A stretch of DNA of 42,820 bases from Spirogloea muscicola (Eukaryota; Streptophyta; Zygnematophyceae; Spirogloeales; Spirogloeaceae). A program made the position numbers and the translations under genes. The notes under the pieces were generated by a model. It saw only the letters and a program-made list of their open reading frames with translations. It did not search any database and was not told the origin of the DNA. Location: the NCBI GenBank assembly GCA_009602725.1, contig WELB01000091.1, positions 474,148-516,967 of the forward strand. Reading direction: 5' to 3'. The stretch's first letter is position 1. Each line of letters starts with the position of its first letter. This document shows, piece after piece, positions 3,701 to 42,820 of the stretch.

Positions 3701-4834
3701 TTCCACTTCCGGCTTACCTGATCCCATCAAAAGCCGGCACCCTTCGACTGCGGCCCATCATCCTTGGCGCCAGGCTCTCAGAGGTCATTTCTGCTGATGA
3801 GTGAGCTGCACATCAAGCCAGGTTATTGTGGACGTTACAGCTTCATTTGCAAGATGATCGAGTCCGTTGCTTCACCCCTGGCTCACACGCAACAGCGAAG
3901 CTAGTTGTGCATGTCACAGACCACGCTTGCGGACTCCTGTGCATGCTGCTTGCTGCTCTGCGACAAGCTCAAGGATAAAGATCACTTGTTGCGTAGGTGG
4001 ACAGCACTGCAAAATGTCAAAGCACGTTACAGAAAAGGCAAGTGAGCTCAAGCTGGCTGTAGAGCACAGTTGCATGGTTTGCATTGAATCCCGAGTATGA
4101 AGCAATATGTAGCAATGAGATTGTGCTCAACCTGAGTATTGTAGTACATGGATATACTCTTGTAGTCAATAGTAGTCCTGCAGAGTTGGTACAATATGCT
4201 AGATGACGATCACATAAGTTGTTCCATGCAGAGAAATATTTGCTGGTCTGCAGAGGCGGCACAATCTGCGTGATCCTTCACAGGACGGCCAGCCCAGCTG
4301 ACATGCTTAAAGGTTACACGCACGCCCTGCGGCTGGCGCTCCTGCTCGACGCAGCAGTGAACAGTGGTGATGCGGACGTCCTTGAGTTGGAGGAGATGGA
4401 AAAGGAGGCTGCCGCCTGGGTAGAGCAGGCATATGACACTTTCTGCAACTCTGTGAGTCAATCTACAGTGGTTCCTTGCACCTTCATGCACGCAGAGCTG
4501 TCTTGCTGGAGAGCTGGCCATGCACTCGGGCATCTGAAGCATGCCTGGATGCTTGCACTCCTTGTTTGGCGCTTTCCTTATGCCACCTCTCAACAAGCTG
4601 TTGGGAAAAAGCAGCTGTCAAACTCATGCGTGCACATTTTCCAGTCCACCTCCGCAACACAACTGCAGACTTAAGCTCCAAAGCTTAAGAAAGTAGGAAG
4701 ACGGCACTCTGACCAGAAGACCTTCGCACACTGCTGCGCAGCTGCAGGAAAGGGGCTGGAACCTGGGCCGAGTGCTGCTGACACCGCAAGAATGGCGGGT
4801 TGATTGGCCATCTGGCAGCTTGGCACCCTCATAG
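798..4834 (+). CDS. RUS/DUF647 family protein (ROOT UV-B SENSITIVE-like), 5' end unresolved
   Basis: RUS proteins are conserved, mostly plastid- or membrane-associated proteins of uncertain biochemistry; in Arabidopsis some members affect UV-B response, vitamin B6 homeostasis and auxin transport. Exons read by phase: 798-884 (ending SAFLPE), 1151-1210 (GFPHSVTEDYLPFQFWDTLQ), 1442-1480, 1611-1673, 2078-2198, 2364-2447, 2873-2955, 3091-3220, 3448-3540, about 3680-3800, 4232-4452 and 4748-4834. Diagnostic DUF647 wording includes FLPE-GFPHSVT, WRLAADFMND, GVASGATRAALTQHFA and EGSQETVATIAGMLLG. The second intron appears to start with GC (cttcag|gcaagg at 1211). The splice near 3541-3680 and a short linking exon between 3801 and 4231 are not resolved, because phases 2 and 1 must be bridged. 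The frame before 798 has a stop and no ATG, so an upstream exon or a different start is needed. The stop at 4832-4834 follows a typical RUS tail (GWNLGRVLL...EWRVDW). Confidence 0.85.
1000..1090 (+). repeat. Degenerate telomere-like tract in RUS intron 1
   Basis: About 90 bases of G/T-rich units resembling TTTAGGG (for example ggtttaagggtttacgattt). They lie inside the intron 885-1150 inferred from the FLPE|GFPHS junction. It is one of five such tracts in the window. Confidence 0.7.
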
Positions 4835-5599: not shown

Positions 5600-8500
5600 T
5601 CACGCGCCGCCTGGTTCACCACCCAGCCCTGCACAACAGAATGCCCAAATGACACCCCACAGGAAGAGGAGCTTAATGTTGACAGCAGATTCCCTTGGCA
5701 TTGCCCGACTTGCGGTTCCTCTGTCATTCTTGAGTAGATGCAAGAGTGCTCCTATTGAATGCAGAGTCAGTGACTTGACGTGCTGAAAGCAGGAAAAGCA
5801 AGCTCACCTGCTGCTACTGTACTCTGAAAAGGGATGCCGGCCTGCCACTCATCAGGGCAAGCGGACTTCTCCTGTGAGGACCTTTTGGTCGCCTCAAAGG
5901 CGGGGCTGGCAGGCTCCCCTGCCGGCCTCTTAAGGCACCCCTCCTGCCAAGGGGAGCCCTTGCCCTCCTCCCCGCCCTTGTCTTCATCATCGTCCTCCAT
6001 ATCCAAGACCGAGGAGTCACGCTCCCCCTGACTTTCCCTTCTTCTGCTCGTGGCTTCATTGCCTGGTATACAGACATTTACTACGATCATGTCAGAGTGT
6101 CGCAAGAACGTAATGTTGCACGAGGCACGGAGAACAGGGATGTAGGTAAGTAGCAGCACCGATGCTCTTGACAGCGCCACTATCATAAGTGCTATTGCCC
6201 CTAACATAAGTGCTATTGCCCCTAAGGAAACACCTATAAGACACTTCATTCTAGGTCTGAATATGGTGCATACATGCTCCAAGAGATGATATACACCCAG
6301 ACTATGACCATTGAGATACAAGATAAACAGACGGACCGTCAGCACATGGCATGTACACCACACAGAAGACACTCCTGAGATCCCAGGCGCCAGAAATATC
6401 CCTCAACTTGACACAAAATTGCGGCAGAAGGCTCGTGATGAAACACAATGTTTGTTCCAATGACCACTTCCCATGTGCTTACTTCTCACACGGGTGGCAG
6501 CTAACGAGGAGGAAACCTCATCCTAGGACCAAGCAAATCTTGCTCACCTGCAGCTGTGGACCATTCTGGGGTTGCCTTGCTTACACCTGCTTGCGAGGTG
6601 ATCTCCGAGGCGCGCTTATACCCTTGAGCTTTGTACTGAGCTATGTGATGGGTTGTCAGTTGCAGGGAGCCCAAAAGGTCATTCTCTATGACGTCATACC
6701 TGCACGTAAGCAGCTCGCTTTCCAATCTGAGTAAGAGGAGCTGTAACAGCTTGTAATGCATGAGCATTAATGATCAGCTTATAACCTCCTTGGCTATTCC
6801 CAGTATGATAGGTGTTATTGCAAGGTGCCAGCTTACATCCTTTGGCAAAGGGCATCCGTCAAAGACGTAGAATTGATGACTTCCATACGGATTTTCTGCA
6901 CTTCGTCATCATCAGCATCGAGGTCCATTGGTGACTCCACAAGCTTGCTGAGCTTCTCCACAATTCCCTCCAATTGCTGTTGCTGGTCTTCAAAAAGGTT
7001 CTGGTTGATGACATTCTGCTCCTCGCTGATGTCATCCTTGAAGAGCTCGTTGCCAAACATGTAGTATGCAAAGGCGTAGGAATACGCCAATGATCTACGT
7101 GCTCGGAACAGCTTCTGCAGCCCGCTTGTAAGCCACGTGTAATCCTTGACCAGGGACTCACTCGCTTCCAACTTGGAGATTTTGGCCTGCACCATCTCCC
7201 GCTGCTTCTTCTCAAACTTGAGTGAGTCCATATGCCCTTTCCATCTTGAGTGGTAGTGGATGTAGCGCTTCAAGTCACGCTGCGCTCGCTGAGCTTCAGC
7301 TTCCTTCTCATCCTTGTAGCGGCCACAGCTGTGCCCAGATATGGTCGTCCATGTGTGCTCCCGACCAGTCGCGGTTCCACACAACCAACTGACACAGTGC
7401 AAGAATTATCATGTCAATGCGTCAGTTCTCCACAGTAGAGAGAGAAGTATTGCTGTATATATATTGCTGAAAATCAGCGGCATCTGCAACAGCTTAGACA
7501 TGGATAATAACTGGCATCTTGACAAATACGCCAGCCAGAAGCTCTCTCCCACTTTGAAAAGCTATCACTCAGTCATCAGTCATTCATCACTCCTGATAGA
7601 CCCTGCCTGGATAAAACGGCGACATACCTAGAAGGTCACACACATGTAATGACATCAATATGTGGAGAGGTAGTGATTTACCAGAAAGCCTGGCCACAGA
7701 TGCATGCGACGAGGTTGCATCCCCCGTTCTTCTCAACTGGTTTCTGACATTTTGGACATGGCTTTGTGTGCGCTGTCAACCAATTGACAGTTTCCGACTC
7801 GTCTTTGCACTTCTGGTCCCAAAGCCGCCACATAGAGCATGAGCATGGAGAGTGTGGCTCCGCCAGGCAATTGAAGCAGAATTGCTGACTGCAAACGCAT
7901 TCCAATTCAGCAAAAGGTTCTCCATCCACACGAATGGCATTTCCACAGTGAGGCACACTTGGGCACCACTTCACTTTGCTGTTGTCCTCAATGTAGGACT
8001 CCAATAAAGATTGCTCATATCGATTCACAGCATCTGCGTCGAATGCTCCTACAAGCTTCCGCACTTTGTGCTCATCACATATGGCAATACATTTGTGCTC
8101 CATGCATGTCACGCGCCGACTCTGACCCTCCAGGATCTTAATGATGAAGTAGCGCGTCCAACCTGCACATAGAGGGAGCATATTTCTCAGAAGCTGGAGA
8201 CGAGCTGCCTTCACGTGCCTCTGATCGAGCATTCTTGGTGAGCTAGCCATGCCCAGACATGCACATCAAGCCGTCCATTACTCCATGTTCAGACTGTCAG
8301 GACAACGGTAGTCTTACAGTCGTTGCAAAAGCTGTGCCCGCAGCTCATCATGGTGGCACTTGCACTGGCCACAGTCTCCAAGCAAGCCCTGCAGTTGACC
8401 TGCGCATGCATCTCCTGCATCACCCCTGCGCTTCTAGCATTGAATGGCAAGCCTGCCTCGACAAAGAGCCTCTCCTCGCCCTTGTCAGCAAGCCTGCCAA

Positions 8501-12224: not shown

Positions 12225-13106
12225 TTGAGAGCTCTGGCTCGACGACAAGGCGGGCGACTTCGGTCTGCTGCACAATGGGTGCCACGCTGTGGCGCGCGGC
12301 CTCCTCCCACCAAGGCCCGGGAGGCACTCACCAGCAGCACCCTGCTCGCCCTCTCCAAAGCAAGCGGAGGCGTGCGACCAATCGCGATGGGCGAGATCCT
12401 CACCCGCCTGGTTTCTATAACCCTCTTCCAGCAGCACTGGGAGGCGGCGCAGCTCTCTCCACAGATGTTGGAGCAGGGCCGTCTGCGGGCGTGCTGTCTG
12501 CGGGCGTGCTGTCAGTTGTCCATGGCCTGCATGTGGCCCTAGACTAAAATCCCGACTTGATGGCCTTATCGGAGGACGTGAGAAACGCAGTCAACAGCGT
12601 TGACAGAGTGATCATCGATGAGGAGCTGCGCTCACATCTCCCTCCCTAATCCCCTTCTTCCGGTGAACCTACGGAGCACCCTCGAGACTGCTCTGGGGAG
12701 CATGTTGCAGGTTGTTCTGCAATCCAGCACAGGCACCCGGCAGGGAGACCATCTCAGCGGATTTCTCTTCGCCTTGGCACACCTACATGCGATGCGCAAT
12801 TCGGTGAAGGCCCACCCTGACGTGCAAATCCCAAGCTACGCAGACGACTCCACTCTAGTAGGACCCCCTGATGAAGTCACTCGTGCCTACAGCACTTTTG
12901 AGCGCGAGTTACTCACCCTCGGCCTCACAATCCGGCCCGAGAAGAGTACAACTTGGTCTCCAACCGGCATCCCTCCCTCTCTTCAGCTACCGGTAGGGTG
13001 CCAGAAACCCCCCACTATGGGGCGGGGCAGCACATGTGGTGCAGATGGTGCAGACAACCCTCGAGCGGCAGTTCCAGCCCCTCTCAGCCCTCCCTACACT
13101 GCATGA
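12225..13106 (+). pseudogene. Reverse transcriptase domain, frameshifted
   Basis: RNA-directed DNA polymerase for target-primed reverse transcription. Recognisable blocks in order: LLALSKASGGVRPIAMGEIL (fingers); at about 12.55 kb MALSEDVRNAVNSVDR (palm motif A region); TGTRQGDHLSGFLFALAHLH (motif B region); and PSYADDSTLVG, the YADD catalytic motif C. The blocks lie in different frames, with at least two frameshifts between 12.45 and 12.65 kb. A perfect 15-bp tandem duplication at 12481-12510 lies just before them. The GGVRPIA...E and ALSEDVRNAFNSVDR wording recalls RT families that I associate with protist and algal non-LTR elements. Confidence 0.75.
12481..12510. repeat. 15-bp perfect tandem duplication within the RT pseudogene
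   Basis: Two copies of gtctgcgggcgtgct. Being 15 bp, it adds five residues without changing frame, so it is not itself one of the inactivating frameshifts. Confidence 0.85.
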
Positions 13107-22029: not shown

Positions 22030-25000
22030 TTAATGCAATCGTGTAAGTTCCTCCACTTGCTTGCAAAGCTCCTCGACTGGAGTTTCCATCATCGCCGCAA
22101 TCTCCTCCATGCGGCTCCGCTTCAGGTCAAGGAAAGACTCAATCAAGTCCCCATCCAGGAAACCCTTGGCGTCCGACGTCTTGCGCTCATTGCTGCAATG
22201 CAGGCCAAAGCCAGAGCATGAGCACGTCAGCGGGACAGCTTCTAGTGACGTGGTCTTCCACTCAGGCATCTGCAAGTAGCAGTAAGTTCTGAGAAAGCTT
22301 CTGAAAGTACTGGCCAATCATGCCCTGCTAATATAGTAATTCATGCGGCATAGAAAGGGCAGGAGGGAAGGTGGAGGCAGTGGCTAGGAGGCACTTTGTC
22401 GCCAGAGGTTTCTAGCAGTTAGATGTGTCAGGTACTGCACCTGAATGAGCGCCATTGCTCGTGGCTCAGCCCACCGACGCCCTTCACAACCTTGGTGAGG
22501 TGGTGTTGCAACCGCAGCAGAAATGCGAATTGATCGTGTGGCAAGGATGCGATGACGCCAATGACGCCGTTGACCGTGCCAAAGATTGTGGTTGGTATTT
22601 GAGGCGATTCAGAATCAGCCAAGCGCATCACTAAGGAGCCCGACCTGAAGCAATTGACGAATTCTCCTAGATGGTACTCGCCAACAACTTCCAAGCGGCT
22701 CCTCTCTTCGTCTGTGGCCGCATCGCTGCACAACCAAGTCGCAATCTATAAGGCACTAGGCAGCCAGAGCCAGAGTCAACACGCACTACATTCGAAAGCA
22801 AGGCCCTCAAGGGCTGGTGCCTTTGAAAAACTGTCACGCTGTCAATAAGTTGGTCATATATTTGGTACAAGTTCTGGCAGGTAGATAGAGCACAGATCCT
22901 GCTTGGTTGGAACAGGTGTTAGGCTGCAATGGAGCACTTCCATTTCGTCCTGATACTCAGGTATTATAAAGTGATAGCAGTTGCAGACATTACCTATTCT
23001 TTCGCACTGTAAAGAGATTGAAATTGTTCTCAGCACCAAGATAAGTATCATCGTCAAGGATATGTACACTCGTCATCCAATCCGGATTGTAGTCCCGTGC
23101 TATCTCCTCAATTGCACCTTCCTCAGGCTGCAGGCATATGAGCATGCTGTGTTAGCAAAGAATCAGGAGAAGCACAACAAGCGAAGGGCAACAGATAAAA
23201 ATAGTTCTGGGATTTGAGTCATCTGCAATCCAATTTGTTGAGCACTGCTTGAAGAGGTATAGGCAATCACGCACCTTGTAGATAAGAAGCGAAATGCTCT
23301 TCATCAAGTCGCCAACTACAATGAAGTCGCCCCGTGACTGCACGTATAGGGCCAGGATGTGCCCGTGATGGCCACACTCGCTCTGAAGTTCCCGTGAGCT
23401 ATCATCCCTTTGTGACCACTTGTACAGCTGAATCTTCTGATTGATCCCAGCAAGAAGCTTCCCATTGAAAGCATTTAGATTGTACACTGCTCCTTTTGTC
23501 TCCTTCTCTGTGACCAACTGCAGCTTCTGATCCTCCACCGTGAACACCAATATTCTTCCCTGGATGAAGAGTTGTGAAGGTGAAAGCATATTATGAGAGT
23601 TCAGTACAATAGACATTTTCAAGCAACAGTTGAGCTTGTAGTGTATGACTAGCTTGCTGCCCAAAATGCTTGTCAGCTTAAGGACATGGCCTCAAGGCTG
23701 CGGAGGACATGCACCAAACCTCACAGACATGGGTTATGTTAGGCTCAGCACATGATGCACAAGCATCCAGTCATCTTGTCATCTACTAGAAGACTAATTT
23801 CTATATCACCTTGGAGGGCTCGTTCTCCTCTGGCAGGGCGTATGCTGTCCCCACGACAAAGTAAGGGTTTGGGTCATCTGCAAATGTACATGAAAGGATT
23901 GAACACCCATTTTCATAGGCATCTAAGTGGAAAGACGAGAGTATCTCAAATGTCTGGTCATGAATAAGGCGCACAAAGAAGTGCTCTATATCCTCGCCAT
24001 TTGATTGTATTGTCTTGAGGCTGCAAATAGCAAAAGTTCTGGATTGTTCCTGTTCCATAAGCAGAGCCATTTGAGCTGTCAGACTCCTATAACACTTGAA
24101 TGTACACTTGGTTGCAAATCGTATCAAACGCAGTTGCAAGGACCAACTCAATTGTATCAACAGCTACTGTTTGCTCTCTCTAGAATTCTCAGGCAAACGT
24201 CACTGATTCTTAGCTCCTCTTCAAAAGGAAGCTGCCTGTGAGTGATTTGCTGCTTAATGTTGTTGCGAGCATGACCCAAGTCCAGCAATGAGGAGCCCAA
24301 CCAGAGGCAATAGCGAGATGCCAAACCTGATGAGCTATCCTGCGGGCATGCTCGCCTAGTGGTACAGTCCTAATGTGTAACTTTTGTATGTCATCTATGG
24401 TACCTATGGTCAACTCGCCCTCCTTGCCTATTGCAAGACTGGCTCAGCAAAGCAGACAACAGTGTCTCAGTACTTGTGACATGGTTGAGGTCAAGAAAGC
24501 AGGTTTGTCCAAAGCAAATTCGTCAATGTTAAAGAGCAGATAATGTGAGAAAGATGGAGTGGAGCGCACCTGTCTGGGAATGAAGCTGAGTTGAATGGGC
24601 ACATGTGTTTAACCTCCTTAAGGTTCACATTGGAGTACAGCAGCTTACGATTGCTGCTGTAGATGACGGTCGGCCGATCGCTAGCTGCAAACACATGCGT
24701 AGCATTCTTGGACCGGAAAGTCCTCAGTGTAATTGGCTGTGTGCCAAGCGATATCTTCTTCCGATCGGAGAGTCTTGCTTTATCGTCAATTGATCTTTCC
24801 ACCACAAAATTGAAGAGATGTCCGTCTCCAAGTGCACAGAGCAAATAAGGTACCTGGCATCACAAGAGCCGTGCGCACATATATAAAAGTATGCTAGAGG
24901 TCTCGACTAGAAATGATGACTTTGCAAGAGATCTCAGAACGGGGATGATTTCCAGTAATAAGGTATAGAAATGCTTCATCCTGAACAAAGCAATCTTATG

Positions 25001-28000
25001 AGAATTGGCTCTGATGAAACTGTGTACCCCCTCAAAGGAGCAAAAGAGGACGGATCTGGGGATGATTTCACCCCCCAAGCTCTCCTTCGCCACAAGTTCC
25101 AGGCTAGGCAAGGAGAACACCCGGACACTCACGTCCGTCCACATCCCCACCGCGGCCAACTGGCTGCTCTCAGCTCCTTCCTCCAGAGGATTCAAGTCGA
25201 GGCATGAAACCTCAAACTCAAGCTGCACGTGCTTGACCTCCACCAGCTTGCCCTGAGCTATTTCTAGATAGACCAAGTTCCCTCCACCAGTGGCCAACAA
25301 GACCTGCCCCATCACAGGTGTTGTCAAAGGGAGGGCATGATGGAAAATCTGCAGCAAACAACTTCTTACCTGACAGCAAGCTAGACATCAGCAAGCTACA
25401 AGCAAGCACTCATTGCAAGTTTTGCACTCTTGGTTTGCACTCTTGCTTCGCTGTTCAGATTCTCAGACAACATATTTCGCCATTGCTTGTATCATATCTG
25501 CCTTCCATCACTCGCAAAGCTCATTGAACTTGTTAAAAGACAGATACGGAGAGGCACATGCAATGGAACTTAAGGTCCTCATTAAGGATAGGCTCCTCTT
25601 CCAGTCAAGGAAATGAAAAGATGAAATTTCTGCAAAAGTCATGCGGGCACCTGTGAAGCATTGGCAGTGGCTACGTTGATTGTAATGCCGGAAGGGGCCT
25701 TCCATTCTGATATAGCTTTGAGTGTGGCAGCATCCACAAGCCGCAGGCAACCAGCAGTGACCTTCCAAGAGGTATGATCAACAAACAGGCAGCAATGTCA
25801 CAACCTGCTCTAGCTCATCTGCTGAAGCTGTGAGCAGATTGTTGGGCCCTAGACATCATGGAAGCTTTGGGGCCAGCAACAAGGATATGCAGCTCAAATA
25901 AGGGCAAGACATATGCCAGGGCTGCAGCAGAGTGACATTCCAAACTCAATAGAATAACCAGAAGGTAGATGCTAGCTTTGACTTTCAATATCAGACCTCA
26001 AATAAGACACTAGTTGCCTTATCGCGCCAAGAGCAGAGGCCTTACCTGGACGAGCTGATCGTGAACAGCATTGCCACAGAAGAGCGTCTGTGCCTCTGAA
26101 TCAAAACCCTCCACCTCAGTCTCGTCCAATTCGTCATCAGCATTGATTGCCAATATTCGAGTCTCGCTTATGAAGGTGACTACCAAGTACGTGTCATATG
26201 CATCCATGGATGACGCACGTAAGGACCACATGCCTTTGATTCCTGGTAACTCAACGGCTGCCTGTGATGACGCACGCCATAAGCATCACAACAAAGCAAA
26301 TACACTTACTAGCCCTTGAATATAAGTCCAGCCTCCATCAATATAGGCTTGCAAGTATTGAAATAGTATATGAAGCCAGTTTCAGGATGAGGAATGGGAA
26401 GCCCTTCGTTCCAGAGTAAGGACTTCAATGCTACATCATGAGCCAGCCTACATTTGAGATCTGGGAGGGCCCAGCACCTGCTCGTTGATACCGATGCCAT
26501 TCCGAATGATGCGCAGAGACCCATCCTTGAATGCCCCGGAGCACGTGACGACTTGACCTTGACCCTGGCGTTCCAGGTCAACAACACAGAAGTCTACAAT
26601 GGGGCCCAGGTTGACAAAATTCTCCAGGATCTCCACGTAGGACCCTTTGGTATCTGGCTGCAGGTTGAGCTTTACAAGCTGCACAAGCACGGCGTAAAGC
26701 GAATCTGCTCAGCAGCAAGGCCGTCAAGGTGAAGGGCGCGCCTACTATACAAAAGCAGAGGACTTGGAAATTTGCTCCGAAAATAAGATACGGCCACAAG
26801 AACCTCAAAACCGGCTAGACAAATATAGCATGTTGCCTGCGCCTATGCTTAGCAGAAGCCTTACAGACCCGCATTGGCTGCCTTTCAAAACACATGCTTG
26901 CAAGTATAGTGTTTACCTGAGAATCCCCATAGCTTGAGCCTATGTACACCACACCGTTGTCCAGGTATGACAGCGTTGAACCAGCCGATGTCTCACCAAG
27001 TAACTCCAGCTTCAACCCAAGCACCCTGCAGCAATACTCAGTGCTAAAAGCTGAACAGTGCAGTATCACAGCCGCCTGACAACATCCATGTCCAAAACCG
27101 CTTGTACTAACGGTGCTGCTACCCTGTGGAAAGTAGGAGCATTGAATACTTGCAAGAGGAATACTAACAGAACCACCCTACCTCTCCTTATCGTGATTAA
27201 TGACCAGCAGGTTGAGCTGACCATTGCTATCACTCAGAAGGTAACGGGACCCGTCTGGATCAACTCGTCCATACGCATTGGTCACAAACTGGAGAAGTCA
27301 CAAGGACTTGTGTTAATCACTGGGAGAGCGAAACAAAAAAAGTTGCTATCTTGAAGTTAGACGCAAGCATGAGCGCATGAATCTTACTACCAATTATAGA
27401 AACTTCCAAGCAGTGCCGATGTCTCCATATTCAAACTGAGCACTTGCTCGTCCAGTTGACACCGCAAGCTAAGGACTGAGACAATACATGTTCATCCACG
27501 TGGTTCGTGCACAATGGTTGACATTGCAACATCAAGCATAGCGTAAACATGGTTATATAACTTATGCATGTAGTCCCACTTGGCAGAGATGGAACCTACA
27601 AAACGTATAGGAATGACTTTAAAGACAGATCCATTGTGGTACATAATTGTCTGCTCGCCAATGATGATGGCCCCACCCAACGGTAGTGGGACTGGTATGA
27701 TGAAGCCCGCTCCACCATCAACATTGGACTGCATCCAGGGGCCCTCGCTGAGATCCTTGTCTTTCAAGGAGACTTCATATGTCTTGACATGACGAGCATC
27801 CTTGTTGTCCTGTTGCACACAGGCAGACAATGGTTAGCTAACCTGTAATCTGATGAGGACTCTGCTAGGCTTGATAGGCAGCTCATTCCTGTTTTTGATC
27901 AATGTGCTCAAGGAAATACTTCAACATCAATGTGCTCAAGGAAATACTCCAACATCAATGTGCTAACTGGATCATCTCTCACTCACACCTGATATAGTAT

Positions 28001-32109: not shown

Positions 32110-35100
32110 CTACTCGCTCTCTGGCGTCGTGGTGGGCTTGTAGGGAGTCGGGGACGTGGGCGGTCGCAGGTCAGGGTACATAGTGTAAGGGCTGAGTGGC
32201 CTGTTGGCATATGGCAAATCTGTTGACGACTTTGACGACGAGGCCACGGTGCTGTTTGTACTTGAGGACCCAGCCTCCCAGGGCCAGCGGAAGCCAGCCT
32301 TCACAGCCTATACAAACAACAGCCGTTTATTAGTGAGACTGTTATGCTGCTGGGGCGGACCCCTCCATAACATTCTTCAATTGCCTCACATGCCTTGCAT
32401 CATGGGATTCCAAGCGTCGCACTGTGCTTGTGACTGCACCCAGCGATGTGGCTACCCATGGCCGCAAGCCTGCTCCGACCTCCTTGAGAGGAGCTGGCAC
32501 AGCTTCTGAAACCTTCGCTGCCAGTTGAGCGGGCTCCGCCTTGGCTTTTTCGATAGCCTGCACCGCCTTTTCGGCTTCAACGGCTGGCTCCAACTTGGGG
32601 ACCTCAGCAGTGGGTGGAGGTGGAGCCACCTCCTCCTTGACCGCGTCCGGTACGTCCTTCAAGAGTCCAACGACAAGTCATGGAGATTAGAATTTAGGGT
32701 TTGAAGTTTAAGGTTTAGGATTAAGGTTTAGCTGTCACTCACTTCCCGTCAAACAGTGGTTGCTCTGTGATGTACTTGCTCCTCGTGAACAAACGACTGA
32801 GATGTATACTATATTGTTTGAATTTATATAGATTACTCAATACCTCTTTTTGGGCAGGAGGCTCTGCAGGGGCGTTGATATCCTCAGGCTGGGAATCCTT
32901 TAGCCAGGGCCAGCGCAACTGCTGCACAACCTGCGCCGCGGCCCCCTTAAGTGGGGCCACAATGTCCTGTGTGGAGGGGGCGCTGGTGGACGTGCCCTCT
33001 GCCATTTGCGGGGGGCCAGGGAACACGGGCGGCTTGAGGTCTTCGTATCTGTGTACATGCCCACCAGAGGAGGTTGACGATCAGCTCTAAAGGGTCTGGC
33101 GACAATATACTTAGAAGACACCAAACAATACACAATAGTCTCCCAAGGAGTAAGTACTAAGATATGGAGCAGCGAGTGCCACTCCTAGTAACAGCTGCCT
33201 TGGGTCCTCTAAGGAACAACTTAGCCATATTCTGTTAGTTGCAACACAGTACAGATACCTAAACCCTTAACCCCAAACCCTTCAAGAGCCTACATCCTAA
33301 TCGATATACGCCACTGCAGAGCAGACAATGCCTGCATCTTGCAGTAGCTTGCATCTGGTATTTGCCCTTGATCTGTTACCTGGAAAATGGAGACTGCGGC
33401 GTGGCACTCTGTGGCAGAGGCACGTCTTCCACCTTGTCCTCGACTGCCGACTTGACGTCGCCAGCAGCTCCTTTGACCTTCTCGATCGTCTCCTCGAAAG
33501 CAGACTCAACCTTATCCGGTGCATCTTGGACAGCAGACTCAACGTTTGCCGCAACCTCTTGCGTGGTCTCAGCAGCCTCGCTCACTCCACTGCATACGAG
33601 CCAGGCTTCACTGTCAATATACTGGCATATACTTGAGGGAGACAGAAAGAGCAAGTGATCACAAATAACAGCTCTGAAAGCAGCAACATGCTGCCATACT
33701 GAATATAAAATTGCAAATACTGCTAAATTGATATCATTGTGACAGATTAGCAATAAGAGCTACTTGCTGACCTTGCAGGTGTTGCAGGACCATTCAGCTG
33801 CCAGGGCCAGCGGAAACCACCCAAAGCATCCAGCGGCTTCTGCGGGGCTGCCTCCTGAACCTTGCCCAGAACATTATCGGCAACATCCCCAGCATCCTCC
33901 GAGGCCTCTTTGGATGCTTCCTTCACTGAGTTATCAATTGGGTAGTCTGCAGCTTGGCCTGTTGGTGTGCCCGACAATGGTTGAGCAGCTTCTTCTGGCT
34001 CTTCAGCTGCCTCCGTGGCTTGAGATGTAACCTCCGACACCCTACAGAAAACAAGTTGTGCATGAGAAGTATGAAAAGATCGATCTGGCAAATGGGCACG
34101 TGAGGATAGAAAAGCTTGACCTGATTCCTGATACTACAACCCAGCTACTGAGTATGAATCAATACTGGTTGTTCCTCCATGACACTGCATGTAAATTCAG
34201 TTGACTGCAGCCTCACTCACTTATCGCCAATGCTCTTCTTGGCCTCCTCCATGTTGATGTTGTCCTTCACCACCGATTCAACTTGGCTAGCCAACCCCTC
34301 CCTTTTCTCCGCTGTCGAATCAATGGCATCTTCGATCTTTGCCGGCACCTCTTGTGCAGCCTCAGTAGCCTCATCCACAGCACTGCAGGTGTACACAAGA
34401 TTGTGTGAATCCAGTGTGCACTTGGAAAGGAGAGAGACACCATGTGTTGCTGTCATCATGCGTGCATTGAGAATAAATGCTGCTCATTGTCCAATATCTA
34501 CTGGCTCCAATTATTTCTCATATCATCGTGTAACATTTTCTGACCTTGCAGCTTCTCCAGCAGTATCACTTTGCCACGGCCAGCGGAAGCCGCCAGAAGG
34601 TGTGGGCAGCTTCTGCGGAGCAACCTCAGCAGCCTCCTGAACATTAGCCGTGACGTCTTCAACAACGCCCCGTGCATCCGCAGATGCAGCCTCAAGCTTA
34701 TTAGAAGTACCCTGCAAAGCATCTGATGCCTTCTCTGCAGTATCGTCCACTAAGTCCTTTGCCTGGGCTGGTGCCTCTTCCAGCAGATCTTTGGACGACA
34801 ACCTGCCCTCCTCGGCAGCTTCAGTGGCCTGAGAGGTCGCCCCCTCAATTGTCTCCGCCGCCTGAGAGGTTACCTCGGATGCCCTACAAGCATCCCAGCA
34901 AAGCATGTTAACTTCCCAATTCACGAGCAAGCTTAGCGTCTTATATAAATCCCTGCTTCACGTCTGATCTAAAACCCTGACCTATTACATACAATGCATG
35001 TGAGCTTCACTTTAACGGCTATCTCCTTTTTTTGGGCAAGCCCACGAGCCTGCGGACTCGACTCACTTGTTGCTGATACCCTTGATCGCGTCCTCAGCTT

Positions 35101-38100
35101 TCTGCCACGGCCACCCGAAGCCTTGCTGCGGGAGTGCCTCGGCGGCATCCTGAACCTTCTCTTTGACTGACTCCACAGCCTCCTGTGCTTCTCCTGGCAC
35201 ATTCTCTGCTTGCGGAATCACTTCATCCTTGATGAAATCTTGCGCCTGCTCCACTGTGGCCTGGGCTTGACCAGCAGTCACGGGAGAACTGCAGCCAGCT
35301 TGAAAGCAAGTGAGTTGCAAGCCATATGCCATTCCGAGAGAGTATAACAAGGACATTAGCTAGTAGTCTTCCGCAGATTGCATAATGCTCAACATAACAG
35401 CAAATCTCAACCTTTGAACGGGGTGCATTGTCTCACAGCCAGCCTAGTGCTGGTGTTTTCTTGATCAAGGCCTTATTCTGAGACTTACATGTTGCGTGCT
35501 GCTGCCTGTGCCTGCTCCTGGGCATCCTGAGCAATCTGCCAAGGCCAGCGGAAGCCTTGCTCCTGCACCTCGCCAGCCACCTTGCCTACGCTGTCCTTCA
35601 CCTGCTCAGCCATGTTGCCTGCTTCTTCGCTTGCTCGCTTCACTTCGGAAGGTACATCCTCGACCTTCTGGGTTGCATCCTCCACTGTAGGAGCCTCCTC
35701 AGGAGCACTGCATTGACCAGGTGGGAAGTGAGATGAGCATCCTGAAGCTTTGCATGACAAGCAATGGATGCAACCACCATTGCATGACAAGCAATGGATG
35801 CAACCACCAAACCCTTCTATAGAACTGCAACTAAGGCAAGGCCCACATGACAGGAGATGAGCGCATGATCACTTTCTGGTCTTCTGCTTCACCAAAGCAA
35901 ATTCTGCTGAGGTGCTATGACATTCTTGCAAAGTGTGGCACATGCGACATACAACGACTCTAGCTGACTGATCTTCAGTCTCGGAACAAGATACATACAT
36001 TTTGGCAGCTGCCGCCTGGGCTTCTCTTTGCGCGTCCTGCGCAATCTGCCACGGCCAGCGGAATCCCTGCTCCTGCACGCTCTCAGCCACCTCGCCAGCT
36101 TTGTCCTTCACCTCCTCAACCACGGACTCGGCCTTGCCAACTGCAGCCTCTGCAGCAGGCTGCGCCTCCTCCACAGCCTCCTCTGCTTGTCCAGCCCCAT
36201 CCTCCAACTTAATCGCATCCTCAGGTCGTATACTGCAGGTAACGCAATCACTTGCATCAGCTTCCCTGAAATACTTACCAAGACACCTGGAGTCAAGGCT
36301 GGTCATATTAAAGATTTTGCGCAACTACTGAACTTATGGAGCGCATCTAGTCATGGGCAGTGCATAGGTATGATAACGTGCTACGTACGTGTCCTTGATG
36401 GCACCATCTGCCGCCTGAATTGCGTCGCCCGCAATCTGCCAGGGCCAGCGGAAACCTTGCTCCTGCACATTTTCAGCCACCTCGCCAGCCTTATCCTGCA
36501 CCTCCTCGACAACAGACTCGGCCTTGCCAACTGCAGCCTCTGCAGCAGGCTGGGCCTCCTCCACAGCTTCCTCTATCTTTCCAGCCCCGTCCTCCACGTT
36601 GTCCGCAGCCTCAGGCGCACTGTGCAGGTAAACATTCGAGAAAATGGTCACTTGCAGCCTCCTTAATAAGAGTCCAGTACAGCTACAGTCAAGGTTGGTA
36701 ATAGTAGCTAAACACCTGGTATGTTCGTAAGCAAGCTTAACCTACTTACTTGCTGAGCACAATCAGTTATGGCAATGCACAGGTGCGGGTAAGTTGCTAC
36801 GAACATGTCCTTGGCCGCTTGCTTCGAGTCTTCGACTATCTGCCAGGGCCAGCGGAACCCAGAGTCCTGGGCACTATCAGCAGCGCCGCTGACCGCCTCC
36901 TGGACCTGCCCAGTGGCCGTCTTGACCGTGTCTGTTGCCTGTTCCGCCAGCGGTGCAGCATTGTCCTCGACAAGCTCCTCTGCCCTTTCAGTCAGAGTGC
37001 TAGCTTGAGTAGCAGCCTCAGTAGAACTGCACCAGGATGACAACAAGCCAGGTTTAGGCAGACTGGATCAGGAACCAAGACCCATCCGTTTCCCCGCGTC
37101 CGCAGCTGATAGCTCACGGAAAATGGCGCAATGAACAAGCGTTGAGGTGATACTAATGGAAGAGGCATCTCACCTATCGGCCGTTGCCTCCTCAGCCTTC
37201 AGTGTCTGCTGCCACGGCCAGCGGAAGCCCGTGTCCTGGACCTCCTCCCCTGCCTCCTGAACTTGCTGGGCAGCTGCACCAAGGACGTCAGTGACGGGCT
37301 CTGCTACCTCCTCCGCTGTTGACTGCACTGATGACAGGGCAGGCGTTGCGAGCTCCTTCGCAGAGTCTACAGCATCCTCGGCCTTCTCCGTAACATCGGC
37401 ACTGCACACCAGAGAAGGGCACAGCGTTACACATAGGAACATGCACATCCTAACCTTCTGAGTGACAGGCCGTCTGAGAGAAGTGCTATCATAGTGAACC
37501 TTCACTCAAGGACAATTCCCCATCCTCAGAAATTCAACCGACCCAAACGACCAATCGCCAATCAGCACGTCTTGCACTTCAAACAGGAACATCTAAGTGC
37601 AAGCATTCAAAAAGACATGCCTGAGAAGCTCAATGGCTGCAAGCAATTAAACATAATTAAACATAACATGAACAGACAAGTAAAGGTAGCACGTAAGGGC
37701 CTGGCCTCCTTGTACCTTGGGGTGTCCTCCAGTTGCCATGGCCAGCGGAAGCCGCTAACAGCACTCTGCGCCTTCTTTGGAGCCTCCTGGATGCCATCCA
37801 CCACCTGCCCTGCTGCTGACCTAGCTTGCTCCTTGGCCTGCTGCATGCGTCGCATCCAGCAAGGTTGTATGTCAGAGAAATCTAGAACACGACTTCTGCT
37901 GACCTCTGCAGTGGGACACATAGGACTCTCATTTTGCTGTACACACGATAAGTGCGACTTACATATGTAGAAGTGATGACATATATGCATTCAGTATGCT
38001 GCTCTGGAAGCACAGGAGATTGCTGTGGGTGTTCTTGCATGCACCCTTCGCCTCACACCTTCACAATGAGCGCCAGGGTCTGCTCAAAGCATTGCTGCAA

Positions 38101-41100
38101 GCTTGCTCTTCAGCGCTAACTAACCTGGGCAGCTGCCTCTCCCCTCTTGCGCTCTTCCTCAGCCTTGGCCTTGGCCTCCTCGCTTGCCTTCCTGTCCTCC
38201 TCCTCCTTGGCCTTGGCCTCTGCCTCTGCCGCCTTCCTCTTCCTCTCCTCTTCGTCCTGCACGGCCTTTGCCTTGGCTGCAGCTTCATCCTTTAGCTGCA
38301 CAAGGCGCGGTGAGACTATCTGCTTCAGACGAGACGACACCAGAGTTCATGACATTGTGGTACTTGAGACTCTTCATACACGGAACTATTGTGCTCCCTG
38401 TAAATAACGCCATTGAGTGTAATCTCGGCTGAACTTGGAGAGCTGAGGGGCTTATGGCGAACCTGCTGCGCCTTGGCCTTGGCAGCCTCCTGCTGGTCGG
38501 CGATCTTCTTCTTGGCAGCCTCAGCGGCGCTGGCCACTGCGCCGGCGACAGACTGCCCGGCCCTCGTGGCCTCCTCGGCCGGCTTCTCCACCGCCTGCTC
38601 GGCAACCTTGGAGACCTCTGTGACCCTCTGCCATGGCCACCCACCGCCCAGCTGCCCGCTTGAGGCCTTCTGCGCAGACCCAATCTGCTGTGGTTTGGAG
38701 CCCAGATCGACTGATGCGGACGCCTCCGAGCGAACCCTGGCAAGAATCTCCTGCTTCTCGCGCGCGCTCAGTCTGCGAGACCCAGAAGACATGCACATCA
38801 GTTGTGACTGCATGCATGTAATGGTTGCAAAACTTCTACCCCTAAGAGGTGCAAGAAAGCTACAACTTGAAGATCTGCCATATCCTTTGAGTGGATTCAC
38901 GTGCAAGCAACTTGGATGTAATTATCTCACATCTTGCCCTCCCTGGCAGATGCCAAGGCCGCCACCTCGAGCACCTTGGCCTCCTTGGCTGCCCGGGAGG
39001 CAGCTTCAGCCTTGGCCTTGATCTCGCTTGCGCGCCTCTCAAGGGCGGCCTTCTCTGCCGTCTGCTCGTCAGCCAGCCGCTTGGCCTCCGCCTCGTCCTC
39101 CTTGGCCTCTTGCAGCTGCTTGCTGAGCTTTGCCTGCAGAAGGGCACACGTTAGGGATGAAGCTAGCTGCTGGCTGTGGCACCTCATGTACAAACTGCAA
39201 AAATTGACCACTTTACGGGAACGGTAAGTACGATCACAGATGTTGTAAAGCTCTGTAAAGGACCCCTTAGCCTGATGCTGCTGAGGTCTTCACTGGCAAA
39301 TCACTGACAATTGCTTCCAACACCTAACTGCTCTCTCTTAAGTGTGCCCCTGCCTCACCTGCAGAGCGCGGGCCTTCTCGGCCTCCAGCTTCTTCTGCTC
39401 TGCCTCTCGCTCAGCAGCAGCCTGCCTTTCAGCTGCCTCCCGTTCCTGCTGAGCCTTGGCCCTCATTTCTTCCTGCCGCTTACCCTCCATCTCCTTGTCC
39501 TGCCCAGACAGGTAAACCCTCAAAATGATGATCGTAACACAGACTGCTGTGAAGCAGTGTAACAGAAGCAAGCTGTAACTGGTACAACTGGGAAACGAGC
39601 AGACTTGTGATCTCATTCAGAGCACAGGCAGCCAAAGCGTCTCAAGTACAGGAATTGATAATAGTCTTAGTAGACAACATTCATGCTTATACAACAAAGA
39701 CGGTCCCACATCATAACGTGACTTACCTCCTGCGACCGCTTGCTGGCTGCCACCTTCCTGCTGGCAGTTGCCGGCCTGCCATTGTCATCTCGCTGCAGCT
39801 GCCCTGCCGCCGCACTATCGTCCTCTTGAGGCTGGCCTTCAGTTGGTGCCTCAGCAAGGAGCTCCTCAATTGGCCGCAGGGGAGCATCCTCTTCAGCCAC
39901 GGCCTCGAGGGTCTTGTACTGAGACAAGTCCGGGTTGCTGATGATGCTAGCAATCAGCTCCGCAACCTGAGGAGACGAGCAAACAGCAAGTCCACTGTAA
40001 GCATCAGCACAATACTAACGTACTCTGTTGGAAGCCATTTGCTACTTAATGTGCAATGTCAACCAGCAGCTTCTTGAAAGTTAAACAATATTCATATAAA
40101 TTCTCACCAAGCCAATCAAGTATATTGTTGGTGTGCAGTGGGCACCATCTGCACAGCAGTTTCAGGAATTCAAAGCATCAAATGGCAAGAATGCAAAGAG
40201 TGCTCACCTGCAGGTTGGAGACTTGGCCCCCAAACTCGGTGTCTGGTGGGGCCAGGCGGAGATTGTGCGTATCCTTGTAGTCATCCTTGGGCCTCTCCAT
40301 TCCCCCAGGCCGCACAATCTGCAGCGCAGGTAACAACCTTGGATTATGTCCGTTAAATATAGTTGGCCGCTTCAGCTAACACGTAAGAGTCTCTGGAAGC
40401 TGCTTACAGTGTAAGGCATGCCACTTTCACGGAGCGCCTTCTCTGCCTGGGCCTTCCAAACGAGCACGCCCCAAAAGAGGCTGTAGCACAGGGATAGCAT
40501 GCATGCAAGTCTGAGCAGCGGGCAGTAGTATAGCTGGTAAGCAAGCCCACAACCCTTTCCCCACAAGCTGCAAATGCAGCAACTATGTATATACTGCAAT
40601 ATATGCCAGTCTCATTCTCTTCAAGTGCTCGACTGGAACCACCTGACATGTTTGTGTATTAAGGCTACTTGTTGCAATCAGGGACTTGTTGCGTACTTCA
40701 GAAGGCCTGCCGGGAAGCCAGGCTTGCCAGTCCCCAGGGACGTGACAAGCACAAAGTGATTGACTTTCATGTCCGCAGCTGCAAAATTTCATACAGCAAG
40801 AACATTGATCGTAGACACTGAAGGACTCAAAGCACAGTCCGTCAAAGTGAACGAAATATGGTGGAGCTGCATGCAGTGATTTGGTGCTAGAAGTTGAAAG
40901 ACGATGGGTAGGTACAAGTAGGCTCAAGTAAGTAACATCTTTGGAAGCTTGTCTCAGGTGCAGACCACAAGGACAACAGCGGTGCCAGTATTGGACCTTA
41001 CCTGCAGCAGCGAGGTCCTTGTTGGCCTTCCCATCAACCTTGTAAGGGCCTGTCACATCCAGCAGTGAGCTCTCTGACGCGCCCAGGGCGCTCACTACCA

Positions 41101-42820
41101 CACCTGCGTTCCCAATGGCCGCCTCCACCGACTCCGGGTCCTGGAGATCCACCTCCACAACCTCCACCTGCTTCTGCCTCCGGACGAGCCCCTTCAAGGA
41201 GACCAGGGTGGCAGCAAGCGAGCGCCTCAGTAGGGCAGCTCACAGGCCAATCAGTCAATCCATCAGAGCATGCTATTGTTCACTTTGGTAGTGGACACGA
41301 GCTGACAATCCCATCTGACACATCTATCGTTGCTGGCTGATGCGATTCATTCCAGCTATCTATCGTTCGAAATCAAACAGTAAAACTGCGAGGCTGGGGA
41401 CTACAGGCGGCAGGCTGACCCCGAGGCTCGCCCAGAAGCCTCCTGGCTTGGCGGCAACATCCAAGACCTGCAACGACCCAGAAGTAGCCAGCATCTTAGA
41501 CTGTCTTGTGATTGCTCAGACGAGTTTCTGCCACTTCAAGGGTTATGAGCTTCCACAACGAGAGCGTGATGTGTCCAACTTGCTTCCAAAGTGCAGCAAC
41601 TATTAGCTGGTGTTGCCCCATCACCGGACACTTTTGAGCATGCCTGGTCCAGCGTTTAAAAGCTCACATCTGCCAGGAGCTCCTCGGCCTTCTCTACATT
41701 GCGAGCGCCGGCCCTGACGCGGAAGCCAGCCTTCACCAGCTCCCTGTAGCATCAAAACATGGCATCAGTCGGACAAGAGGGGGTGACCAGCAAAGGCCAA
41801 CGGGACTAGCCTCTAGCGCATTCACCTTGCTCCAGCGCATCCATTCGATGCAATGCATGTCTCGTGAAAGCGCAGAAGCTTGAAGGGGATGGCAGGCACG
41901 TCAACAATTGACAGACATATTGGCTGACCACCTGATTTGTGGTGACGAATGCAAGAACAAGACTGCAAGTGGTTGTCACGGGGGATGGTAACGAGCTCAC
42001 CTCACAGTGCGGGAGCCCACTTTGCCAGTGGCGCCGGCGACAAAGACGACCTTGTTGTCGCGAGGGAGGTCCCTGGCAGGCCGGCCCGAGCGTGCCACTG
42101 CGATGCCGCCCTCGGGCTTCACGAGCTTGGTGGTGCCGCCGGCCTGCCGCTTGGCAGCCGCGGCGCCCAGGACGGCGCCAACGCCGCCCTTTTGCGTCCC
42201 CGCAGCGCCCTTTGCTTTTGCAAGGCGCCCCGCCGCCACCTTCTGCGTGCCGCGCTCCCGCTCCGCCGCCTTCGGGAGCTTGCCGCCGATTGTCCTCCCT
42301 CCAGTGGCCGCGCGCTCGGTGTCGGCGGCCTTCTTCCCAACGTTGAGAAACCCGAACGGCCGCGAGGCTGCTCCGCGCAGCCAAACGCAGCGTGCACGTC
42401 AGGCCATGAGCTTGCAGGACAACACCCATGCCTGCGCTGACCCCTCGGAAGCTGAGTCACTGGCAATGGAGGGCTCAGGTGATGGGGCCAAGGGCTCTCG
42501 CTAGACCTCCGTCGTCTATCAAGCTGGCATTGATGATCTTCAGCCTTGTAGTGTCACCACTGAGTGTATGCCCCTCTGTGTACCTCTGGAAGGGCTTGAG
42601 CTCACACACACTCAAGACTGCTAGACGCAACTTGGGCCAACGAGCAGGCTGCGAGCAGCCGCCGCTAGACGAGGATGAGGACGTCGTTACCTTCCTCCGC
42701 GACCTCCTGCTGCGGCGTCCTGGCGGCGCGCGGGGCCAGGCGGAGGCGGCGGCGGCGGTTCAGCGCCGGGCACGCCCCGGGCGAGAGCTGCAGGCGGCGG
42801 TAGCCGCCGAGGGCGGAGGC
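32110..42820 (-). CDS. TIC62: TIC62-like protein with a long array of WPW-motif helical modules (5' end outside window)
   Basis: TIC62 is a chloroplast NAD(P)-binding protein of the inner envelope, stroma and thylakoid that tethers ferredoxin-NADP reductase (FNR). Twenty-seven exons keep phase for 1,736 residues: E1 42820-42691 (Arg-rich, transit-like; start outside), E2 about 42370-42001, E3 41743-41668, E4 41467-41420, E5 41191-41002, E6 40778-40697, E7 40480-40408, E8 40318-40208, E9 39966-39727, E10 39499-39359, E11 39133-38931, E12 38772-38463, E13 38295-38125, E14 37840-37716, E15 37401-37174, E16 37026-36805, E17 36619-36389, E18 36232-35999, E19 35707-35489, E20 35288-35067, E21 34883-34545, E22 34382-34221, E23 34041-33772, E24 33589-33380, E25 33048-32844, E26 32656-32456 and E27 32307-32110. 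E2-E9 carry VVFVAGATGKVGSRTVR, SLLDVTGPYKVD, VLVTSLGTGKPG, LFWGVLVWKAQAEKAL, IVRPGGMERPKDDYK and LRPIEELLAEAP, as in TIC62. E10-E13 are charged helical; E12-E27 are mostly WPW modules. The E2 acceptor and the E26 donor are the weakest calls. Confidence 0.85.
32143..32202 (-). other. C-terminal FNR-binding-type Ser/Pro motif
   Basis: The last exon encodes RPLSPYTMYPDLRPPTSPTP, which matches the Ser/Pro-rich membrane-recruitment motif by which vascular-plant TIC62 and TROL bind FNR (PLSPY-x2-Y-x-DLKPP-x-SP pattern). It lies 14 residues from the end of the protein. Confidence 0.8.
32686..32732. repeat. Telomere-like tract in TIC62-like intron 25
   Basis: gaatttagggtttgaagttt and aaggtttaggattaaggttt lie between E26 (starting 32656) and E25 (ending 32844). 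They are C-rich in the gene's sense. Confidence 0.75.
33009..33400 (-). other. Second FNR-binding-type motif, split by an intron
   Basis: E24 ends with TPQSPFS plus two bases of a codon, and E25 continues RYEDLKPPVFPGPP. Joined across the 331-base intron this follows the same SPY/F-x-RYEDLKPP pattern as the C-terminal copy. The phase-2 junction completes an AGA codon. Confidence 0.7.
33254..33300. repeat. Telomere-like tract in TIC62-like intron 24
   Basis: Plus strand acctaaacccttaaccccaa acccttcaag (split for length); G/T-rich in the gene's sense. It lies inside the intron that splits the FNR-binding-type motif. Confidence 0.75.
35751..35809. repeat. 30-bp tandem duplication in TIC62-like intron 18
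   Basis: Two adjacent copies of a unit beginning tgcatgacaagcaatggatg, identical except at the last base. It lies between E19 (starting 35707) and E18 (ending 35999). Confidence 0.85.

Follow-up and report, generated by a model that had tools for sequence, protein, structure and literature searches.

A predicted full-length Tic62 with a giant helical array between its NAD(P)-binding head and its FNR-docking tail in Spirogloea muscicola

A 42,820-nucleotide stretch of the Spirogloea muscicola genome (GenBank assembly GCA_009602725.1, contig WELB01000091.1, positions 474,148 to 516,967 of the forward strand), hereafter called the window, raises the question of whether a TIC62-type NAD(P)-binding domain and a very long series of repeated helical modules belong to one protein or to two. 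An original prediction, made from the letters of this stretch, had joined such a head in unbroken phase to about 1,300 further residues and had named two separate genes as the main alternative. The results described below suggest that a single nuclear gene quite probably encodes a full-length Tic62, in which a giant helical spacer lies between the NAD(P)-binding head and a predicted FNR-docking tail.

The exon model was assembled manually from GT/AG splice sites and phase, and was then translated. Twenty-seven exons on the minus strand, from position 42820 to position 32110, fuse into one continuous frame (Table 1), and the spliced E2-E27 sequence stays open up to a stop codon at 32110-32112. 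The frame of E2 was set from the end of this exon. An ATG at 42429 was considered as the start of E2 and rejected because its frame differs from that of the head, and the E1-E2 join was taken instead: E1 (42820-42691, donor GTAACG) and E2 (from 42367, acceptor GAGCAG) share the same frame, as was revealed by a comparison of three copies of the gene. The start codon lies past position 42820, where both the contig and the window end, and the protein therefore comprises at least 1,735 residues. Its layout consists of a basic N-terminus (residues 1-165), the head (166-439), a charged helical stretch (440-714), the array encoded by E14-E24 (715-1535) and a tail encoded by E25-E27 (from 1535). The region encoded by E1-E2 carries a net charge of +24, is rich in Ala, Gly and Arg, and may contain a transit peptide, the true start lying beyond the contig. 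E10-E27 contribute residues 440-1735, so that 1,296 residues follow the end of the head at residue 439, very nearly the number given in the original prediction. Introns of the gene reach at most 331 nucleotides, and the least certain boundaries of the model are those of E4 and E5, where the same sites are present in all three copies.

The head is predicted to be a Tic62-type NAD(P)-binding domain of the short-chain dehydrogenase kind, as had been proposed. It matches the Pfam family NAD_binding_10 with an E value of 2.1e-31 (five Pfam families are listed at E <=0.01), and the best PDB chain is 1xq6 (Arabidopsis At5g02240, E 2.5e-9). The glycine motif GATGKVG, which has the GxxGxxG form of a Rossmann fold, is identical in the three gene copies. 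In addition, the segment ERPKDDYKDTH in E8 agrees with the Tic62 group I signature (E-R-P/A-T-D-X-Ar-K/G-E-T-H; PMC1847441) at eight of its ten specified positions, the departures being T to K and E to D, and the runner-up site in the protein fits five. The signatures of groups II and IV, checked by their first residues alone (LVNGAA and GPYTSYDL), are absent.

At its other end, the protein carries two predicted FNR-docking motifs like those of plant Tic62. PDB entry 3mhp contains a TIC62 peptide crystallised with FNR, and motifs of this type bind FNR. When the last 32 residues of the Spirogloea protein were compared with 177,635 PDB sequences, the only one retrieved at E <=1 was this peptide (3mhp_C, E 5.5e-6). 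The first motif (SPFSRYEDLKPPVFPGP) spans the E24/E25 splice junction, where the intron splits an Arg codon, and it matches 3mhp_C at E 0.013, with one unrelated PDB chain at E 0.67. Both motifs were scored against the published consensus for full-length Tic62 (S-P-Y-x2-Y-x-D/E-L-K-P2-S/T/A-S/T-P-S/T-P, 14 specified positions). Motif 2 in E27 fits 13 positions and motif 1 fits 10, compared with a maximum of 8 in 2,000 shuffles of the whole protein and of 9 in 5,000 shuffles of the tail. The plant peptide used as a genome query (E <=10) found three matching places, which are the C-termini of the three gene copies, and motif 2 is identical at 17/17 residues across them. This identity and the closeness of motif 2 to the crystallised peptide speak against the view that the C-terminal motifs are relics that no longer bind FNR; the drift of motif 1 to 10/14 would suit that view, which we nonetheless regard as quite improbable.

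Exons of FNR are encoded elsewhere in the genome. What we take to be leaf-type exons (YMCGLKGMEKGIDDIM) occur at three loci, two of which were inspected, and an exon that we take to resemble the root type is also present. A TROL-like second gene with an FNR motif was not found in the genome with either E27 or the plant peptide as the query. E27 gave three weak additional matches (contigs C134, C51 and C15), and those on C134 and C51 show no FNR motif by eye. Since both head and tail are of the Tic62 type, the array is best read as an insertion into Tic62. The original prediction was right in describing a modular protein of head and array, but it missed the two motifs at the C-terminus, and a head attached to a foreign scaffold therefore gives way to a full-length Tic62 with an insertion.

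A single frame from head through tail would nevertheless be an artefact if the locus held two neighbouring genes, one for a short Tic62 head (E1-E9) and one for a separate repeat protein (E10-E27). This alternative can be weighed by using the three copies of the gene in the genome (153 Mb, 471 contigs; GC content 0.54 over the loci retrieved from it). A DNA pattern for FRWPWQ matches 24 times genome-wide, eight times at each of the contigs C53, C91 (the contig of the window) and C160 and nowhere else; because a control with the reversed pattern gives 32 matches, which is not below 24, the informative part of this result is the confinement to three loci. Head, module and tail were found together at these same loci, which account for 21/21 rows of the module search and 18/24 rows of the head search, the remaining six being distant relatives at 34-51% identity. 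In a collection of genome contigs, none of 334 stretches matching a head pattern was confirmed by tblastn, in a search for close relatives that says little.

The C53 and C160 loci were aligned to the window, and their splice sites were projected from the window through the alignment. On this basis, the 26 introns of the three copies have GT at 78/78 donors and AG at 78/78 acceptors. Pairwise divergence between copies, counted without the first 7 alignment columns of E1, is 6.4, 7.0 and 7.2% in exons and 16.7, 17.9 and 19.3% in introns. Indels are multiples of three in every exonic case (4/4, 3/3 and 5/5 in the pairwise comparisons) and in 17/84, 16/111 and 14/96 intronic cases. Ratios of nonsynonymous to synonymous substitution, with gapped codons omitted, are 0.25, 0.31 and 0.26 for the whole protein and 0.29-0.35 for E14-E24. 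Because splice sites are kept at 26 introns in three diverged copies and exon indels all preserve the frame, one nuclear gene with a single predicted frame is far likelier than two.

Other observations point the same way. The introns between head and array (E9-E14) measure 227, 225, 158, 167 and 284 nucleotides in the window, and the largest interval is 293 and 294 nucleotides in the other two copies. These spaces leave little room for a terminator, a promoter and intergenic DNA between the two, and splice sites and phases across them are preserved despite the 17-19% difference between introns. The FNR motifs, a hallmark of Tic62, also sit at the end of the array that is remote from the head. 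Two genes would accord with the head-only relatives reported in moss and elsewhere (PMC1847441), and a poly(A)-like TGTAA is present in intron 14 of 3/3 copies, but intron 14 sits within the array, and introns 9-13 contain no TGTAA common to the three copies. This signal is not diagnostic in any case, since it is lacking or remote after the true stop codon: there is none within 1,500 nucleotides in C91, none in the aligned stretch of C53, and one 430 nucleotides downstream in C160. We therefore judge the two-gene arrangement very improbable, and the joining of head and array in one gene, as first predicted, stands.

The head and the FNR motifs are about 1,090 residues apart, a span filled by charged helices and, after these, by acidic amphipathic helices that repeat. 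All ten exons from E15 to E24 are symmetric (phase 2-2), as would be expected for growth by exon duplication. Eight of the ten carry a Trp-Pro-Trp (WPW) motif, and the nine sister exons of E18 are 25-76% identical to it. The gene has 12 such motifs, distributed from E12 through E27, with E13, E22, E24 and E26 being the only ones of these sixteen exons to go without, and 24 of the 28 Trp residues of the protein sit within them. Across the three copies, W-P-W is identical at 36/36 positions and the surrounding seven-residue motif at 81/84, versus 668/809 for the remainder of residues 715-1600. The helical hydrophobic moment of E14-E24 lies far above that of 100 shuffles (z 13.5), with a peak at 98-100 degrees. 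By the same test, z is 0.7 in the charged stretch E10-E13, which is no higher than its shuffles; the head scores -0.9, the tail 1.2 and E1-E2 0.7. The helix faces of the array are mainly Ala and Val on the hydrophobic side and acidic on the polar side, and its net charge is -102. By its pattern, therefore, the array is predicted to be acidic, strongly amphipathic and helical.

An AlphaFold2 model was made for E18 aligned with its nine sister exons. It is weak, with a mean predicted local distance difference test (pLDDT) score of 61, and places helices at residues 3-54 and 60-76. The break between them falls on the WPW motif (residues 57-63 counted from the split codon, 56-62 in the model), and confidence per ten residues climbs from 58 to 69 to 85 across and just past the motif. 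A comparison of the five modules E15-E19 with the PDB gave a single weak match (E 0.013), which was put down to composition and set aside.

We hypothesize that the two proline-rich C-terminal motifs would bind FNR and that the head would sense NADP(H). The array might then form helices in series with a hinge at each G-F-R-W-P-W-Q, providing a long reach or scaffold that could hold FNR some distance from the head. It may rest on a surface by way of its Ala/Val face and Trp residues, bundle with itself or dock a partner. We infer chloroplast import, FNR binding, membrane association, in the thylakoid or the envelope as the original prediction had it, and the spacer or scaffold role. As a tentative proposal, FNR tethering by a full-length Tic62 may be older than land plants and, in this lineage of streptophyte algae, may have grown into a giant scaffold of hinged acidic helices with a dozen W-P-W motifs, which would position FNR beside a WPW-binding partner or else along thylakoids or between them.

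Several points weigh against a full-length Tic62 working in this manner. The gene model is predicted from genomic sequence, and the contig lacks the start codon and a portion of the N-terminus. The group I signature is missed at 2/10 positions and FNR motif 1 deviates from the consensus at 4/14. The structure model of the module is weak, as noted above. Finally, the acidity of the array opposes simple binding to the anionic lipids of thylakoids, and because this strong negative charge disfavours such plain binding, two other readings of the array are given real weight.

In the first of these, a chloroplast partner would dock on the WPW motifs, making the protein a 12-site scaffold that brings this partner beside FNR. 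This would refine the tethering explanation and is compatible with it. The number of copies and their share of the Trp residues (24/28) favour docking, as do the retention of the motif among gene copies and in 8/10 repeat exons whose identity to E18 is otherwise 25-76%, and its place at the helix break of the weak E18 model where confidence rises. However, FRWPWQ is encoded nowhere else in the genome, and there is hence no shared-motif family to indicate the partner. We consider partner docking possible, if somewhat doubtful. In the second reading, the array is an LEA-like stress-protective or mostly disordered insert in Tic62, which would protect membranes or proteins during drying and would have nothing to do with FNR placement. 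Amphipathic helices rich in Ala and Glu, with an Ala/Val face, are consistent with this, and a terrestrial streptophyte alga would require protection from desiccation. In contrast, constraint is strongest on the aromatic WPW motif rather than on the helices, LEA proteins are typically Trp-poor, and no LEA family matches the protein in Pfam at E <=0.01. Such a protective insert appears unlikely.

The Spirogloea protein resembles vascular-plant Tic62 (pea Q8SKU2, Arabidopsis At3g18890) in its group I-like head, its C-terminal Pro-rich FNR motifs and, possibly, its transit-peptide-like N-terminus, and differs from it in the helical WPW array between head and motifs. The FNR module of pea Tic62 occupies residues 387-534 with three motifs and Arabidopsis has four, whereas the Spirogloea protein has two motifs and at least 1,735 residues, in keeping with the earlier suggestion that its C-terminal part is far longer than in plants. 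Short group I Tic62 proteins (Physcomitrella, red algae) and the related groups II-V are described with the same kind of Rossmann head but without the FNR module that is present here. TROL is described as having the same kind of C-terminal FNR-binding domain; however, it is an integral membrane rhodanese-like protein, whereas the Spirogloea head is of the NAD(P)-binding kind and Pfam gives the protein no rhodanese match at E <=0.01. A Chlamydomonas protein named TIC62 in a proximity-labelling study (PMC10602608) is alike in name and in an assumed role in photosynthetic electron flow, a comparison made by description only. This name is at odds with PMC5683061 and PMC11912148, according to which FNR tethers are missing from Chlamydomonas.

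According to the 2007 survey (PMC1847441), the FNR-binding module is restricted to vascular plants, group I had not been found in green algae at that date, with confirmation pending, and Physcomitrella has a short Tic62 form. FNR tethers are called higher-plant specific in PMC7984839. Maize Tic62 is described as lacking the FNR-binding domain (PMC4030315), so that a Tic62 can occur without the module. Euglenophyte relatives are reported to cluster apart from plant TIC62 (PMC6242988), and duplications of TIC62 are reported in plants (PMC12531127). Among the matches listed in our literature search, judged by titles and the openings of abstracts, no Tic62 FNR module was recognised in streptophyte algae, although subscription journals and preprints are poorly covered and such a module may be in print elsewhere.

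The location of FNR is thought to set the split of photosynthetic electrons between linear and cyclic flow. If the present explanation is true, intact docking motifs in the full-length Tic62 of a streptophyte alga would date the origin of the tether to before land plants, and the short Tic62 form of moss would be a loss. The WPW array is a constrained repeat whose role can be tested, and the string FRWPW occurs in none of the papers in the collection searched.

Table 1. Predicted exons of the Tic62 candidate gene, in window coordinates
Exon	Feature	Position	Strand	Basis
E1	Partial; Arg/Ala-rich N-terminal stretch, transit-peptide-like, start beyond contig	42691..42820	-	three-copy comparison
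E2	Basic linker and start of Rossmann fold (VVFVAGATGKVG, GxxGxxG)	42001..42367	-	
E3	Head	41668..41743	-	
E4	Head, boundaries provisional (donor GTCAGC; E5 acceptor GAAG)	41420..41467	-	
E5	Head	41002..41191	-	
E6	Head	40697..40778	-	
E7	Head	40408..40480	-	
E8	Head, Tic62 group I signature region ERPKDDYKDTH	40208..40318	-	
E9	End of head	39727..39966	-	
E10	Charged helical stretch	39359..39499	-	
E11	Charged helical stretch	38931..39133	-	
E12	Charged stretch and first WPW motif (GGGWPWQ)	38463..38772	-	
E13	Charged helical stretch, no WPW	38125..38295	-	
E14	Short module, GFRWPWQ	37716..37840	-	
E15	Repeat module, phase 2-2, GFRWPWQ	37174..37401	-	
E16	Repeat module, GFRWPWQ	36805..37026	-	
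E17	Repeat module, GFRWPWQ	36389..36619	-	
E18	Repeat module, GFRWPWQ, structure modelled	35999..36232	-	
E19	Repeat module, GFRWPWQ	35489..35707	-	
E20	Repeat module, GFGWPWQ	35067..35288	-	
E21	Longer repeat module, GFRWPWQ	34545..34883	-	
E22	Helical exon, no WPW	34221..34382	-	
E23	Repeat module, GFRWPWQ	33772..34041	-	
E24	Helical exon, no WPW; 3' end encodes first residues (SPFS) of predicted FNR motif 1	33380..33589	-	
E25	Remainder of predicted FNR motif 1 (RYEDLKPPVFPGP, intron splits Arg codon) and LRWPWL	32844..33048	-	
E26	Pro/Ala-rich linker, no WPW	32456..32656	-	
E27	Last WPW (GFRWPWE), predicted FNR motif 2 (SPYTMYPDLRPPTSPTP), stop	32110..32307	-	

Sequence comparisons with PDB chains place the genome with streptophytes rather than chlorophytes. 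Its RbcS exons reach 188 bits with the best chain (9pvb_M) and roughly 163-184 bits with chains that we take to be land-plant RbcS, as against 148-150 bits for Chlamydomonas chains and 141 bits for 8q04, which we take to be from Chlorella. An LHCII exon leans in this direction weakly, since a Chlamydomonas chain (6kac_Y, 318 bits) comes close to chains of spinach and pea (about 320 bits) and the top match is an unusually long LHCI chain. Whole-genome triplication has taken place in S. muscicola, and the three Tic62 copies probably reflect this triplicated genome rather than a gene family, given the threefold matches of several families: FNR, PF13460 and LHC each match at three similar places on three contigs, and RbcS at four. 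Zygnematophytes are flagella-less, with which the failure to find a dynein heavy chain in a genome search run without a positive control agrees. A legend in PMC11096116 mentions a gene with three copies in S. muscicola.

The assembly breaks at the same point upstream of E1 in all three copies, within 7 aligned bases. Two of the breaks are contig ends (position 42820 of the window and the C160 end at 327272) and one is a run of N (C53, near 235897), and perhaps the copies are too similar there. Intron 18 of the window contains a perfect 30-bp tandem duplication at 35750-35809 and is longer than in the other two copies by 27 and 31 nucleotides.

Elsewhere in the window, exons at 23155-25387 on the minus strand encode the second beta-propeller and the CPSF_A region of a protein of the DDB1/CPSF1 type, and an Ariadne-domain exon lies at 6836-7405 on the same strand (E 1.1e-65). 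On the plus strand, the frame at 4207-4671 encodes a Root UVB sensitive C-terminal domain (E 1.5e-7), and a reverse-transcriptase fragment at 12612-13103 (RVT_1, E 4.5e-8) is likely the remnant of a retroelement.

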